A stretch of DNA of 64,000 nucleotides from Mesorhizobium sp. (GTDB lineage Bacteria > Pseudomonadota > Alphaproteobacteria > Rhizobiales > Rhizobiaceae): the NCBI GenBank assembly GCA_022833215.1, contig JAIPUZ010000092.1, forward strand, positions 1 to 64,000. The letters are read 5' to 3'. Of the stretch, positions 32,553-38,643 are shown one piece after another. The position numbers and the translations under genes were made by a program. Under the pieces are notes generated by a model. The model did no database searches. It worked only from the letters and a program-made list of their open reading frames with translations, and was not told where the DNA came from. Numbering within the stretch: the stretch's first letter is position 1; each line of letters starts with the position of its first letter.

Positions 32553-33514
32553 GCCGGGGGCAGGCGCTTCTCGACAGTCTTGGCGACAGGCTTTCGGGTC
32601 TGCGCGGGCGTCTCACGCCCGATGCGGAGATGGACAAGATCACCTGGTTCCGCGCCGGCGGCCTTGCCGCTGCGCTTTTCCAGCCCGCGGATGAGGAAGA
32701 CCTCGCAGCCTTCCTGAAGGCGGTGCCGGAGGACGTGCCTGTCATGGTGGTCGGCATCGGATCCAACCTCCTGGTACGCGACGGCGGCATTGAAGGTTTC
32801 GTGGTGCGGCTTTCCGCCAGGGGATTTGGCGCGGTCGAGGCGATTTCCGAAACGCGCCTGCGTGCCGGCACGGCCGTGCCGGACAAACGCGTCGCCGCCG
32901 CAGCCCTGGAGGCGGGTATCGGCGGTTTCCATTTCTATCACGGCATTCCCGGCGCCATCGGCGGCGCGCTGCGCATGAACGCGGGCGCCAACGGCGTGGA
33001 AACGCGCGAGCGGGTCGTCGAGGTGCGGGCGCTGGACCGCAAGGGCGATCTTCATGTGCTCTCCAATGCCGACATGGGCTATGCCTATCGCCACAGTTCC
33101 GCGCCGAAGGACCTGATCTTCACCTCGGCCGTGTTCGAGGGCTATGGCGAGGACAAGGAGACGATCAGGGCGGCGATGGATGAAGTGCAGCACCATCGCG
33201 AGACAGTCCAGCCGATCCGGGAAAAGACCGGCGGCTCGACTTTCAAGAACCCGGAGGGCACATCGGCCTGGAAGGAGATCGACAAGGCTGGCTGCCGGGG
33301 CCTGATGATCGGCGGCGCGCAGATGTCGCCCATGCATTGCAACTTCATGATCAACACGGGTTCGGCCTCCGGCTACGATCTCGAACATCTCGGCGAGACG
33401 GTGCGCGCGCGCGTGCTCGAAAATTCCGGCATCCGCCTGCATTGGGAAATCCGGCGCATCGGCGAATTTCGCCCCGGCCGTGAGGTGCAGGAGTTCCTCG
33501 GGCAGTTGCTCTGA
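32549..33514 (+). CDS. murB: UDP-N-acetylenolpyruvoylglucosamine reductase MurB
   Basis: This 321-residue FAD enzyme has [16 protein letters not shown], the PP-loop block [40 protein letters not shown], and the catalytic region [18 protein letters not shown]. It reduces the enolpyruvyl group to the lactyl of MurNAc. The start is a TTG overlapping the murC stop (TTGA). No ATG fits before the conserved N-terminus, so coupling to murC is likely. It is the last gene before the 222-bp GANTC-rich gap. Confidence 0.93.
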
Positions 33515-33515
33515 G

Positions 33516-33695
33516 GACTCACAAAGGTAAAATTTCATTCAAATTCGCAGAAAGTGAATCTCCCGGAATCCTGAGGGCTTGCCACGGAATCAACTCTCTG
33601 ATTCTTTGGGGTTAAGGCGTTTCCTGATTTGAGTCGTTCGGCGCGTAGGTCGCGGTTCCCGACGGGGCTGCAACCACAGACTCGGATTCTGACTC
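33516..33695 (+). promoter_or_regulatory. Cluster of nine GANTC (CcrM) sites upstream of ddl-ftsQAZ
   Basis: GANTC occurs at 33516, 33556, 33566, 33587, 33600, 33631, 33679, 33685 and 33691. All nine lie inside the 222-bp gap between murB and ddl. GANTC is the target of the cell-cycle methyltransferase CcrM in alphaproteobacteria, whose methylation state is read by GcrA at division-gene promoters. The density is far above chance. It probably marks a cell-cycle-controlled promoter for ddl-ftsQ-ftsA-ftsZ; the exact -10/-35 is not obvious. Confidence 0.7.
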
Positions 33696-33736
33696 AGGAA
33701 ACAAGGATTGAGTGCCCGCCGAGGGGATGACGGGAT

Positions 33737-34663
33737 ATGACCAGCAAGCATGTTGCCGTATTGATGGGGGGTGTCTCAAGCGAGCGCCCTGTTTCCCTCT
33801 CTTCCGGCAATGCCTGTGCTGATGCGCTCGAAGCCGAGGGCTACAGGGTCACCCGTGTCGATGTCGATCGCAATGTGAGCGCCGTTCTTTCCGGGCTGAA
33901 GCCGGATGTCGCCTTCAATGCGCTGCATGGACCGTTCGGTGAGGATGGCGTCATTCAGGGCGTTCTCGAATATCTGGAGATTCCCTACACGCATTCGGGC
34001 GTGCTGGCCTCGGCTCTGGCCATGAACAAGGAGCAGGCCAAGAAGGTCGCGCGCGCGGCCGGCGTTCCGGTGGCGGAATCGAAGGTCGTCAACCGGTTCG
34101 GGATTGGCAACGCGCACCCCATGGCGCCGCCCTATGTGGTGAAGCCTGTCGCCGAGGGGTCCAGCTTCGGCGTGGTCATTGTCGGCGAAGATCAGTCTCA
34201 CCCGCCGCAGATCGTCTCTTCGCCCGACTGGAACTATGGCGAGAGCGTCATGGTCGAGCGCTATGTGGCCGGGCGCGAGCTTACCTGCGCGGTGATGGGC
34301 GATGTCGCGCTCGGGGTGTGCGAGATCATTCCGACCGGCCATTCCTTCTACGATTACGATTCGAAATATGTCGCGGGCGGATCAAAACACGAAACGCCTG
34401 CGAAACTTTCACCGAATATTTACCAAAAAATACAGACACTGGCGCTCAAGGCTCATCAAGCAATCGGCTGCCGGGGCGTGTCCCGGTCTGACTTCCGTTA
34501 CGACGATCGTCATTCCGAAAATGGCGAGATCGTCTGGCTCGAGGTCAATACCCAGCCGGGCATGACGCCGACGTCCCTGGTGCCCGAGATCGCCGCGCAT
34601 GCAGGGCATTCCTTCGGCGATCTTTTGAGCTGGATGGTGGAGGACGCTTCGTGTCTTCGTTGA
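33737..34663 (+). CDS. ddl: D-alanine-D-alanine ligase
   Basis: This 308-residue ATP-grasp enzyme starts [19 protein letters not shown] and contains [47 protein letters not shown] and [17 protein letters not shown] with the metal-binding Glu and Asn. It makes the D-Ala-D-Ala dipeptide used by MurF. It opens the second half of the dcw cluster behind the GANTC-rich region, with GAGGGG upstream of the ATG. ftsQ overlaps its end by 13 bases if the GTG start is used. Confidence 0.96.
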
Positions 34664-35562
34664 GGTCGGGACGTATGGGTCATGGTGGGCTGGCTGGCCT
34701 GGCGCCTGTCGTGCGTCCTGTCATGCCGCGCTGGCTGCGCCGTCCGCTGCGTGTGTTTTCGAGGCTGGGCGAGGGTGCCTATGCGGCACCTCCCTTTGCC
34801 GCCACCATTCTTTCCGTCGCGCTGCTGTCGTCGAGCGCGACCTACGGCGCCTATCTCGGCGGCCAGCTCGAGGATTTCGTGCAGGGCGTCACGGCCCGCA
34901 CCGGATTTGCCGTCGATCAGATCAGGGTCGTCGGCAATCAGTATACGTCCGAGATCGACATCCTCGACCGGCTGGAGCTGAACGGGTGGACGGCGCTGGT
35001 CGGGCTCGATGTCGTCGATGCGCGCGACAGGATCGCGTCGTTACCCTGGGTCCAGCATGCGACGGTTCGCAAGGTCTACCCCAACACGCTGGAAGTGCGG
35101 ATAGAGGAGCGCGAGCCGTTCGCCATCTGGCAGCAGGGGCGGGCGCTTAACGTGATCGAAGAGAGCGGGCGGGTCATCGCGCCGTTCTCCGGCGGCCGGC
35201 TGGCTTCGTTGCCGCTGATCGTCGGCAGCGGTGCGCCCGAACATGCGCCGAAGCTCATCGCGCGCATTGCGGACGTGCCGGAGCTTGCCGGTCGCGTGAA
35301 GGGCTATGTGCGCGTCGGCGAGCGGCGCTGGAACCTGCATCTGGACAATGGCGTCACCGTCAAGCTGCCGGAGCACGGCGTCCGTGCCGCGCTGGAAAGG
35401 CTGGCGCAGCTCGACCGCGAGCAGGGGCTGCTCGGACGTGACATCGTGGCGGTCGATCTGAGGATTCCCGATCGGGTTGCGGTGGCGCTTTCGCCCGATG
35501 CCTCCGCGGCGCGTCTGGCGGCGCTCAAGGGCGCGGCGCGCAAGTCGGGGAGCCGCATATGA
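34651..35562 (+). CDS. ftsQ: Cell-division protein FtsQ
   Basis: This 303-residue bitopic protein has a cytoplasmic N-terminal region, a transmembrane helix (about 50-68, [17 protein letters not shown]) and a POTRA domain (about 85-155, [18 protein letters not shown]). The FtsQ beta domain with [25 protein letters not shown] follows. It scaffolds FtsB/FtsL. The GTG at 34651 overlaps ddl by 13 bases; ATG 34675 is an alternative that would remove eight residues from the cytoplasmic tail. Confidence 0.92.
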
Positions 35563-36866
35563 ACTGGTTGCGCAAGAGTGGCGATGCCTCGGCCCGGCGT
35601 TCAGGCGTTCTCACGGTGCTCGACGTGGGGTCGAGCAAGGTCTGCTGCGTGGTGGCGAAACTCAAGCCCTGCGAAGACGGCAACCTGCTGCGCGGGCGCA
35701 CGCACCGCATCCAGGTGATCGGCATCGGCCACCAGAAATCGCAGGGCATGAAGTCCGGTGTGGTGGTGGATCTGGAGCGCGCCGAGCATGCCATACGGCT
35801 GGCCGTGGACTCGGCCGAGCGCATGGCCGGGCTGACCGTCGACTCGCTGATCGTCAACATGACGGCGGGCCGCCTGAAGAGCGAGACCTTCTCCGCCACC
35901 GTCAATCTCGGCGGCCACGAGGTGGACGAAAGTGACATCAGGCGCGTGCTGGCTGCCGGTGCGCGTCAGGCGCTGAAATCCGAGCGCGAGGTGATCCACT
36001 CGCTGCCGGTGGGCTTCTCGCTCGACGCCGAGCGCGGCGTTCGCGATCCCCGCGGCATGGTGGGCGACACGCTGGGCGTCGACATGCACGTTCTGACCGG
36101 CGATGCGGCACCGCTGCGCAACATCGAGCTGGCCATCAACCGCTCGCATCTTTCGGTCGAGCGTATGGTGGCGACCCCTTACGCCAGCGGTCTCGCCGCA
36201 CTGGTGGACGACGAACTGGAAATGGGGGCGGCCTGCATCGACATGGGTGGCGGCACGACCACCATCTCCATCTTCTCCGAAGGCAATTTCGTGCATGGCG
36301 ACGCGATTCCCGTCGGCGGCAACCATGTGACGCTGGACCTCGCAAAGGGGCTTTCCACCACCATCGAGGCGGCGGAGCGGCTGAAGGTCATGCATGGTTC
36401 GGCTCTGCCCGGCAGCGCCGACGACCGCGACCTCGTCACCATTCATCCCATCGGCGACGACCATGGCGCGCCGATGCAGATTCCGCGTTCGGTCATGACC
36501 CGCATCATTCGCGCCCGCGTCGAGGAGACGCTGGAAATGCTGCGCGACCGTATCAGCAAATCAGGTTATGCCAGCGCGATCGGCAAGCGAATCGTGCTGA
36601 CAGGCGGCGCCAGCCAGCTTGCCGGTCTCCCGGAAGCGGCTCGTCGCATTCTTGGGCGCAACGTGCGCACCGGACGCCCGCTGGGCGTTGCGGGGCTGCC
36701 CGAAGCGGCCAAGGGGCCGGCATTCTCGACGGTGGTCGGGCTCCTCATCTATCCGCAGGTGGCGAATTTCGAGAGTCGTCCTGCCAGGGGTGGGGCCGTG
36801 TTCAGGATGACCGGGACGGACGGGCGACTGTATCGCGTAAGTCAGTGGTTGAAAGACAGTTTCTAG
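35559..36866 (+). CDS. ftsA: Cell-division actin-like protein FtsA
   Basis: This 435-residue actin-fold ATPase has phosphate-1 block [14 protein letters not shown] near residue 22, the SHS2/1C domain, and phosphate-2 block [16 protein letters not shown] (about 225). The adenosine motif is [13 protein letters not shown] (about 347). The C-terminal residues [11 protein letters not shown] form the amphipathic membrane-targeting helix. FtsA tethers FtsZ to the membrane. It overlaps ftsQ by four bases. Confidence 0.96.
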
Positions 36867-36933: not shown

Positions 36934-38643
36934 ATGGCAATCAATCTTCAGAAGCCGGACATCACCGAGCTGAAGCCGCGCATCACCGTTTTCGGTGTCG
37001 GCGGGGGCGGCGGCAACGCAGTCAACAACATGATCACCGCCGGTCTGCGCGGCGTCGAGTTCGTTGTGGCGAACACCGACGCCCAGGCGCTGACCATGTC
37101 GAAGGCCGAGCGGCTCATCCAGCTCGGCGCACATGTCACCGAGGGGCTGGGCGCCGGTTCGCAGCCGGAAGTGGGACGCGCCGCCGCTGAAGAATGCATC
37201 GACGAGATCAACGATCACCTGTCCAATACGCATATGTGCTTCGTCACCGCCGGCATGGGCGGCGGCACCGGCACGGGTGCCGCCCCGGTCGTCGCACGCG
37301 CGGCCCGTGAAAAGGGGATCCTGACGGTCGGCGTCGTCACCAAGCCGTTCCATTTCGAGGGCCAGCGCCGCATGAAGACGGCCGACCTCGGCATCGAGGA
37401 GCTGCAGAAGTCGGTCGACACGCTCATCGTCATCCCGAACCAGAACCTGTTCCGCCTGGCCAACGACAAGACCACCTTCGCCGATGCCTTCGCCATGGCC
37501 GATCAGGTGCTCTATTCGGGCGTTGCCTGCATCACCGACCTGATGGTCAAGGAGGGTCTGATCAACCTCGACTTCGCCGACGTGCGTTCGGTGATGCGCG
37601 AGATGGGCAAGGCCATGATGGGTACGGGCGAAGCTTCCGGCGAGGGTCGCGCGATGGCCGCTGCCGAGGCCGCCATTGCCAACCCGCTGCTCGACGAGAC
37701 CTCGATGCGTGGCGCCAAGGGCCTGCTGATCTCGATCACCGGTGGCCGCGATCTTACCCTGTTCGAGGTGGACGAGGCGGCGACCCGCATCCGCGAGGAA
37801 GTCGACCAGGACGCCAACATCATTCTCGGCGCCACCTTCGACGAGGAACTGGAAGGCGTCATCCGGGTGTCGGTCGTTGCCACCGGCATCGACAAGTCGG
37901 CCGAAGAAATCGCGGCGACCCCGATCGCCATCCGCCCCCCGCAGGCCAAGCCCGTTGCCCGCCCTGCCGCCCCGGTGGCTGAGGCCCGTCCGGTTATCCA
38001 GCCCGCGCCGCAGCCTGCGCCGGTTCATGAGCCGCGCGCTGCCGATCCGGTCGCCGAAGCCTTCCAGATGGCCGAGCAGAACGCCGCTGCCATGGCGCAG
38101 CGCCCGGTGCAGGCATCGGATGACTTTCGCCCCCAGAGCAAGCTCTTCCAGCAGGCTCAGCCGCACCAGCCCGTGCAGCAGTTCCAGCAGCCCGTGGTGA
38201 CGCAGCAGGCGGCGCTTCAGATGCAGCCGGCTCCGCAGCCGGTCCATCCCGCTCCGCAGCCGCGCGAGATGCATCAGCCGGCAGCGCCGCAGCGCATGCC
38301 GCGCGTGGAGGATTTCCCGCCGGTCGTGCGTGCCGAGGTCGAGGCCAAGAACAACCCGGTCAGCCATGAGGAACGCGGCCCGATGGGGCTGCTCAAGCGC
38401 CTCACCAACGGCCTGACCCGCCGCGAGGAAGAGCCGGCGCGTCTCCAGCCTGCCCAGCCGCGCGAGCCGAAGCTGCGCCAGGCTCAGCCGGAAGTGCGCC
38501 GCGCGCCTTCGCAGGACTCGCAGCTTTACGCACCGCGCCGTGGCCAGCTCGACGATCAGGGCCGCCTGGTCGCCCGGCCGCATGCCGCTCACGACGACGA
38601 TCAGCTCGAGATTCCCGCTTTCCTGCGCCGTCAGGCAAACTGA
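36934..38643 (+). CDS. ftsZ: Cell-division GTPase FtsZ
   Basis: This 569-residue protein has a tubulin-like N-terminal domain (1-320) with [14 protein letters not shown] and the signature [13 protein letters not shown] (about 108). A Pro/Gln-rich disordered linker of about 220 residues, unusually long as in other rhizobia, precedes the conserved C-terminal peptide [12 protein letters not shown] that binds FtsA and partners. ATG 36934 follows AGGACGAGG; 12 in-frame upstream codons lack family similarity. A strong terminator ends the operon. Confidence 0.96.

Follow-up and report, generated by a model that had tools for sequence, protein, structure and literature searches.

Methylation control of ftsZ in C. 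crescentus and a GANTC cluster at the gcrA promoter of A. tumefaciens are already known. C. crescentus ftsZ was reported to need a methylated CGACTC sequence (PMC3708114). The same 2013 study stated that GANTC is not frequent in the ftsZ and mipZ promoter regions of Rhizobiales and, because ftsZ promoters there seldom carry the site, dropped ftsZ as CcrM's essential target in this order; where CcrM was tested in Rhizobiales, it proved essential under the conditions of those tests (PMC3708114). In A. tumefaciens, the gcrA promoter holds six GANTC sites in 250 bp and is repressed by methylation, and ftsZ is hardly affected by CcrM depletion (PMC11514494).

Active GcrA promoters of C. crescentus carry the motif YGAKTCG (Haakonsen 2015, quoted in PMC7987155), given as YGAKTCK in PMC8725594; GcrA ChIP in B. 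subvibrioides yielded no extended motif, according to the account in PMC7987155. The GcrA proteins of S. meliloti and Brucella have been tested as methylation-dependent orthologues (PMC3667746). Among 96 C. crescentus cell-cycle start sites with GANTC no more than 50 bp upstream, 11 have more than one (PMC4287350). It is also known that GANTC is depleted in genomes of alphaproteobacteria and in excess between genes (PMC3973325). No report of an array before ddl-ftsQAZ was found in the literature searched, which took in only a minority of the subscription journals.

A nine-site GANTC array before ddl

The window, that is, the whole 64-kb stretch of Mesorhizobium sp. DNA analysed here, was searched by exact motif matching. 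Nine GANTC sites lie within 180 bp (33516..33695), starting at 33516, 33556, 33566, 33587, 33600, 33631, 33679, 33685 and 33691, all inside the 222-bp gap (53% G+C) between murB, which ends at 33514, and ddl, which starts at 33737. This bears out the sequence-only reading, which had counted nine sites in 180 bp before ddl-ftsQ-ftsA-ftsZ. That reading had estimated well under one expected site; 0.68 sites per 180 bp are expected from the composition of the gap (Poisson P(>=9) = 5e-8) and 0.27 at the density of 1.5 GANTC per kb found over the first 376 kb sampled (P = 2e-11), both P values applying to a single stretch selected after the fact. A chance origin of the array was rejected on the Poisson expectation. 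When the 16 palindromic pentamers of the form XYNY'X' were counted in the gap, GANTC ranked top with nine occurrences, the next three having three each. The density seen at A. tumefaciens gcrA (about six GANTC per 250 bp) is reached at ddl, with nine in 222 bp. The window as a whole is GANTC-poor (102 sites against a shuffle mean of 305).

The array was then set against a genome sample made up of the window and 60 further stretches, two of which had been chosen for holding gcrA and ccrM (1,088,692 of 4,548,661 bases, 24%; 1611 GANTC). Counted as non-overlapping clusters per 180 bp, this sample contained the ddl array with nine sites, one cluster with six, two with five and eight with four, making the array the densest cluster in the sampled 1.09 Mb. 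The view that such dense clusters are unusual stands for the array itself, nine being unmatched in the sample, but smaller clusters are present at ctrA and gcrA. Five GANTC in 166 bp precede ctrA (contig C80, L193 4391-4556), a chance find whose offsets are mostly kept in relatives. Four in 145 bp precede gcrA (contig C111, L197 13375-13519), largely in register in 15 relatives; this stretch entered the sample because gcrA had been placed there. Together with the cluster at A. tumefaciens gcrA (PMC11514494), they show that GANTC clusters are a recurrent feature of cell-cycle promoters in the family.

Elsewhere in the sample, the second densest cluster, with six sites, belongs to a pair of clusters of six and four GANTC (contig C76, L231 15877-16024 and 17065-17178) flanking putative methionine ABC transporter genes (a MetQ-like ORF, recognised by eye); a tie between methionine supply and methylation, if true, would be odd. 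Five GANTC in 83 bp occupy the gap past a putative histone-deacetylase-like ORF, also assigned by eye (contig C12, L207 1748-1830).

Both CcrM and GcrA, on whose presence the sequence-only reading depended, are encoded in the genome. A single GcrA match was found (Pfam, 198-202 bits), together with a single RAMA match, situated on a methylase with N6_N4_Mtase whose best NCBIfam name is CcrM; these matches exceed the Pfam cut-offs, and the best NCBIfam scores fall below theirs (CcrM 647, cut-off 830; GcrA 161, cut-off 280). A GANTC cluster at ccrM was sought and rejected, the 400 bp upstream of the gene holding only one site.

The gene before the gap, murB, was matched above the NCBIfam cut-off. 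The genes following it are:

33737..34663, + strand: ddl, D-alanine--D-alanine ligase, first gene past the array; above the NCBIfam cut-off
34651..35562, + strand: ftsQ, overlapping the end of ddl; weak match, 37 bits, below the NCBIfam cut-off
35559..36866, + strand: ftsA, overlapping the end of ftsQ; above the NCBIfam cut-off
36934..38643, + strand: ftsZ, 3.2 kb past the ddl start; above the NCBIfam cut-off

The end of ddl overlaps the start of ftsQ and the end of ftsQ that of ftsA, with ftsZ about 67 bp further on, so that the four genes likely form a single operon. An array proximal to ftsZ was rejected. The ftsA-ftsZ gap of about 67 bp is free of GANTC. For 30 loci given, ftsZ could be located in 29 relatives, and 22 of these have a single GANTC within 250 bp before the gene, usually around -98 and within ftsA. 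The window itself has a lone GAGTC inside ftsA at 36773, at offset -164 from ftsZ.

Conservation of a three-site core

Searching with the Ddl sequence of the window yielded 80 named relatives. An alignment of 35 rows was made from the window plus 34 of these loci, picked as the Mesorhizobium side after their GANTC counts were known (locus L027, which lacks a murB match, was retained). A profile of 33578-33636, the 58-bp core, was made from sequence only (R1); R1 and A2 were built on 26 rows, including 25 loci found through a pattern that already required TTG, GATTC and GAGTCG. Separately, 60 further upstreams were pooled with those of the window and of the 80 named loci (141; 133 after removal of eight duplicates). 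The 60 had been hand-picked, about one per genus, from 56 genera with listed ddl coordinates, and more distant genera are missing. An anchor, TTG-N15..17-YTGATTC, which includes the site at 33600 and the T preceding it, occurs in 92 of the 133 ddl upstreams. The features of the array, with their conservation in these samples, are:

33516..33520, + strand: GANTC site 1 (GACTC), distal; GANTC in register in 20 of 92 anchored upstreams
33556..33560, + strand: GANTC site 2 (GAATC), upstream of the -35-like element; 45 of 92
33566..33570, + strand: GANTC site 3 (GAATC), 10 bp past site 2; 48 of 92
33578..33636, + strand: core CTTGCC-N3-GANTC-N8-GATTC-N26-GAGTCG (profile R1), putative promoter; 156 of 394 family genomes
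33578..33583, + strand: putative -35-like element CTTGCC; CTTG in 35 of 35 rows
33587..33591, + strand: GANTC site 4, core, 5 bp past CTTG; 34 of 35 rows, 70 of 92 anchored upstreams
33600..33604, + strand: GANTC site 5 (TGATTCT), core, where a -10 would be expected; 35 of 35 rows, 92 of 92 by construction of the anchor
33631..33635, + strand: GANTC site 6, core, within TGAGTCG (33630-33636), GcrA-type YGAKTCG; 35 of 35 rows, 92 of 92
33679..33683, + strand: GANTC site 7 (GACTC), opening a triplet with 6-bp steps; a GANTC 70-100 bp past the anchor in 60 of 92
33685..33689, + strand: GANTC site 8 (GATTC); exact match, 35-row alignment
33691..33695, + strand: GANTC site 9 (GACTC), nearly window-specific; columns unconserved in 35 rows

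R1 matched once in the window's own genome and in 156 of 394 family genomes, spread over 50 of 109 genera; in the same genus all eight genomes matched, the window's own included. Each matching family genome had a single match, save an assembly with a pair, of which one member sits at the extreme start of a contig. The remaining 238 family genomes gave no match, and an order-wide draw gave 12 in 397 (nine from the same genus, one from the same family and two from other families, these last weak at 20.8 and 18.7 bits); the family and order scans used stricter filters, at which weak matches are lost. To judge from these profile matches, the core seems to be a trait of the family, which the 238 family genomes without a match either lack or carry in too diverged a form. 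The array is thus no curiosity of the window as far as the core is concerned; for the site at 33691 that description was upheld.

The 92 anchored upstreams (260 bp each) contained 541 GANTC, 92 of them required by the anchor, against 140 in shuffles. This ratio (3.86) was the highest for 16 like motifs, the next being 1.71. Each anchored upstream holds three to nine GANTC (median six), and the 41 upstreams lacking the anchor hold zero to four each; relatedness among the genomes inflates these conservation counts. Outside the core, sites turn over: those at 33556 and 33566 are retained in most of the 35 rows, an extra GANTC appears at +13 in 11 anchored upstreams, and other positions also come and go. 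It was also considered whether the array is a chance cluster or an RNA leader element. The part from 33637 onward does give a weak consensus hairpin when the window is folded with 12 relatives (33637-33740; -1.56 kcal/mol), but the sole Rfam match in 33400-33850 is a chance one inside ddl (E 0.59), and an RNA element was rejected on these grounds. The Poisson figures, the spread of R1 and the tally of the 92 upstreams also speak against this pair of explanations, which we regard as highly improbable.

The third core site begins 28-33 bp past the start of the anchor GATTC in 92 of 92 upstreams. Its context, which the anchor does not demand, corresponds to the YGAKTCG of GcrA promoters: the base before the site is Y in 92 (T 90, C 2), the N is K in 91 (69 G and 22 T, with a single A) and the base after it is G in 86 (T 5, A 1). 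In the window it reads TGAGTCG (33630-33636), and the GAGTCG at 33631 becomes CGACTC on the minus strand. At 33587 the N is A in 62 anchored upstreams, T in four, G in three and C in one; in the 35 rows all four bases likewise occur as N, and the G, A, T and C of the motif are held bar one loss.

The sequence-only reading had proposed asking whether relatives conserve the sites rather than the surrounding bases. The core sites are indeed kept while the N at 33587 varies, but the flanking bases are conserved too (CTCTGATTC, CTGATTTGAGTCG), which points to a promoter-like block and not to sites alone. As for relatives retaining the sites at all, the three core sites are kept and the outer ones are less conserved, 33691 being nearly specific to the window. 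Part of the array is under selection, as read from the alignments, and since the outer sites vary among relatives, the three core sites seem to carry the basic role.

The conserved flanks, the N held invariant across 35 rows at two core sites (33600 and 33631) and the want of an ordinary -10 at the expected place (see below) would also fit a conserved promoter or operator of some other regulator, GANTC being there by happenstance and methylation incidental. Nevertheless, neither the letters nor the spacing of the nine sites are uniform, so that no single other motif accounts for them all; the N is variable at 33587, and at the third site it switches between G and T; and the GANTC ratio lies far above those of the 15 other like motifs. 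We think this explanation rather unlikely.

A candidate promoter and its proposed control

The regions upstream of ctrA and gcrA were compared in 15 relatives from 12 genera (250 bp each). They hold one to six GANTC at ctrA (offsets -231, -222, -171 and -159) and four to six at gcrA (near -180, -162, -149 and -38), mostly at shared offsets. CTTG-N5-GANTC, the spacing that separates CTTGCC from the site at 33587, is present in 15 of 15 gcrA upstreams, and CTTG/TTTG-N5-GANTC in 69 of 133 ddl upstreams; YTTG-N5-GANTC was rejected as a feature of ctrA (0 of 15). Background occurrence of YTTG-N5-GANTC is 16 in 1.09 Mb, both strands, two of these being the genome's own ddl and gcrA copies. In the gcrA upstreams NTANNT follows TTGTCA at 16-17 bp in 15 of 15, supporting the reading of CTTG as a -35 element. 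At ddl, NTANNT at this distance from the -35-like hexamer was found in none of the 92 anchored upstreams, and an ordinary -10 was therefore rejected. Thus, either an activator is required at the ddl promoter or its placement here is wrong.

Given these data, we give about an even chance to the reading that the array is the CcrM/GcrA-responsive promoter region of the ddl-ftsQAZ operon, activated through GcrA and sigma-70 when methylated. CTTGCC at 33578 would be the -35 element and transcription would start near 33614, so that the site at 33587 would fall between -35 and -10, at -27 to -23, that at 33600 at -14 to -10 and that at 33631 at about +18. The poor -10 place would suit an activator-dependent promoter. 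CcrM would methylate the array late in the cell cycle; methylated TGATTCT (33600) and TGAGTCG (33631), both of GcrA-type context, would recruit GcrA with sigma-70 RNA polymerase; passage of the replication fork would leave the array hemimethylated, and the output of the operon would track replication and CcrM activity. The outer sites may add GcrA contacts or buffer the signal, and a counting role of the nine sites, or the graded one suggested by the sequence-only reading, is a guess. In favour of this reading are the number and density of the sites, the spread and register of the core, the GcrA-type third site, the presence of both proteins, the clusters at ctrA and gcrA, the methylated CGACTC needed by C. 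crescentus ftsZ and the GcrA orthologues tested from S. meliloti and Brucella. Against it, the third core site would lie downstream of the proposed start, outside the usual GcrA position, and no ordinary -10 follows the -35-like hexamer. The weak response of A. tumefaciens ftsZ to CcrM depletion, the repression of gcrA there, the B. subvibrioides ChIP result, the 41 upstreams lacking the anchor, the 238 genomes lacking R1 and the NCBIfam scores below cut-off also count against it. In C. crescentus, GANTC between -35 and -10 goes with activation at 40-60 min (PMC4287350). By analogy with C. crescentus ftsZ, activation by methylation is the likely net sign, although this is the least certain step.

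The sign could also be the opposite: full methylation beside the -35 and near the -10 would hinder RNA polymerase, and hemimethylation by the fork would release the operon, a mechanism proposed for A. tumefaciens gcrA. The (C/T)TTG-N5-GANTC arrangement shared by ddl and gcrA upstreams, so rare in the background (see above), fits such direct hindrance, as does the finding that methylation lowers the activity of the A. tumefaciens gcrA promoter region, even with E. coli as host (PMC11514494). Hindrance leaves the GcrA-type context of the third site unexplained, however; the -10 of the gcrA type, seen at gcrA in relatives, is missing at ddl, and C. crescentus ftsZ behaves contrariwise. We hold this possible but unlikely. 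Activation and direct hindrance alike make the operon answer to CcrM. A further alternative is that MucR or another protein shields some of the sites from CcrM, local hypomethylation then being a mark of the division promoter. MucR does so at target promoters of C. crescentus and S. meliloti, but neither "ftsz" nor "ddl" occurs in the main text of the paper concerned (PMC5172544), and we consider shielding very improbable.

Diverging lineages and comparison with described systems

A different picture was obtained on the Rhizobium and Sinorhizobium side. Rhizobium, Sinorhizobium, Neorhizobium, Ciceribacter and others mostly carry GTTAAYNAARGTAAAC before ddl, at -180 to -108 (median -133), which we take to be a CtrA-box-like element, also because TTAACCA is present in 15 of 15 ctrA upstreams. 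In most loci of this side (L040-L081), GTTAAYNAARGTAAAC is highly conserved about 110-180 bp before ddl and is usually followed by TTAACCAT or TTAACCTT. Of the 41 unanchored upstreams 35 have the element (38 with a looser pattern), and of the 92 anchored ones 16 (16 with either pattern); it is absent from the window and its 34 clade rows; some rows with neither element miss the CtrA-like pattern by a single letter. In S. meliloti, CtrA reportedly affects division by way of minCD; by word count, "ddl" is absent from the text of that report (PMC4433202).

A quick single-gene ddl tree of 81 rows, for which no root was inferred, placed 35 rows on the window's side (support 88, not starred), where the core is present in 35 of 35 and the CtrA-like element in 0 of 35. 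The other 46 rows have the CtrA-like element in 42 and the core in 10, these 10 being scattered (Shinella-like, R. giardinii-like, S. medicae/saheli, Ectorhizobium). Overall, 35 rows carry the core only, 32 the CtrA-like element only, 10 both and four neither. Changes along the tree number at least five for the core and four for the CtrA-like element, with two independent pairs on starred branches; with only these two pairs, no statistical claim of mutual exclusion is made. The distribution suits an old GANTC core, gain of the CtrA-like element and repeated loss of the core, gains and losses being indistinguishable on an unrooted one-gene tree.

As the core pattern is kept across many related genera, the comparison suggests that DNA methylation helps to time division in these bacteria. 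A promoter before ddl would be overlooked both by the 2013 statement on ftsZ and mipZ promoters (PMC3708114) and by a count confined to the 200 bp ahead of ftsZ (PMC11514494). Whether methylation is tied to division in these bacteria can now be tested directly, with core-bearing and core-less lineages as the contrast. More tentatively, and with doubt outweighing confidence, one may picture division on the Mesorhizobium-Phyllobacterium side as wired to methylation via the multi-site ddl-ftsQAZ promoter which, with the smaller arrays at ctrA and gcrA, would make up a circuit that counts methylation; among the Rhizobium-Sinorhizobium lineages the array would have been joined, and then often replaced, by a CtrA-type element. 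If true, this picture would help to account for CcrM being essential in Rhizobiales and, should A. tumefaciens fall among the latter lineages, for its ftsZ not following CcrM.

The array resembles the CcrM-activated ftsZ and mipZ promoters of C. crescentus in that a division gene, a GANTC in CGACTC context and a genome encoding GcrA and CcrM come together (PMC3708114). In C. crescentus, however, the promoter adjoins ftsZ, and the GANTC within CGACTC was identified as the source of the effect (PMC3708114), whereas the array comprises nine sites before ddl, 3.2 kb upstream of ftsZ. Its third core site, which reads TGAGTCG or TGATTCG, and its second, TGATTCT, are points in common with GcrA-sigma70 promoters (compare YGAKTCG in PMC7987155 and YGAKTCK in PMC8725594); the array has more sites than is usual for them, multi-site starts being few in C. 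crescentus (PMC4287350). A. tumefaciens gcrA is alike in that GANTC sites are densely clustered at a promoter of the cell cycle, in a related bacterium (PMC11514494). CTTG-N5-GANTC is common to the array and to gcrA of the relatives examined, but the gene is another one and ddl is without the -10 seen at gcrA in relatives. In enterobacteria, GATC clusters at oriC are read by SeqA; we know of no SeqA-like reader of GANTC. Although enzyme and motif differ, and the array sits at a promoter and not at an origin, it has in common with those clusters the packing of adenine-methylation sites at a cell-cycle control point.
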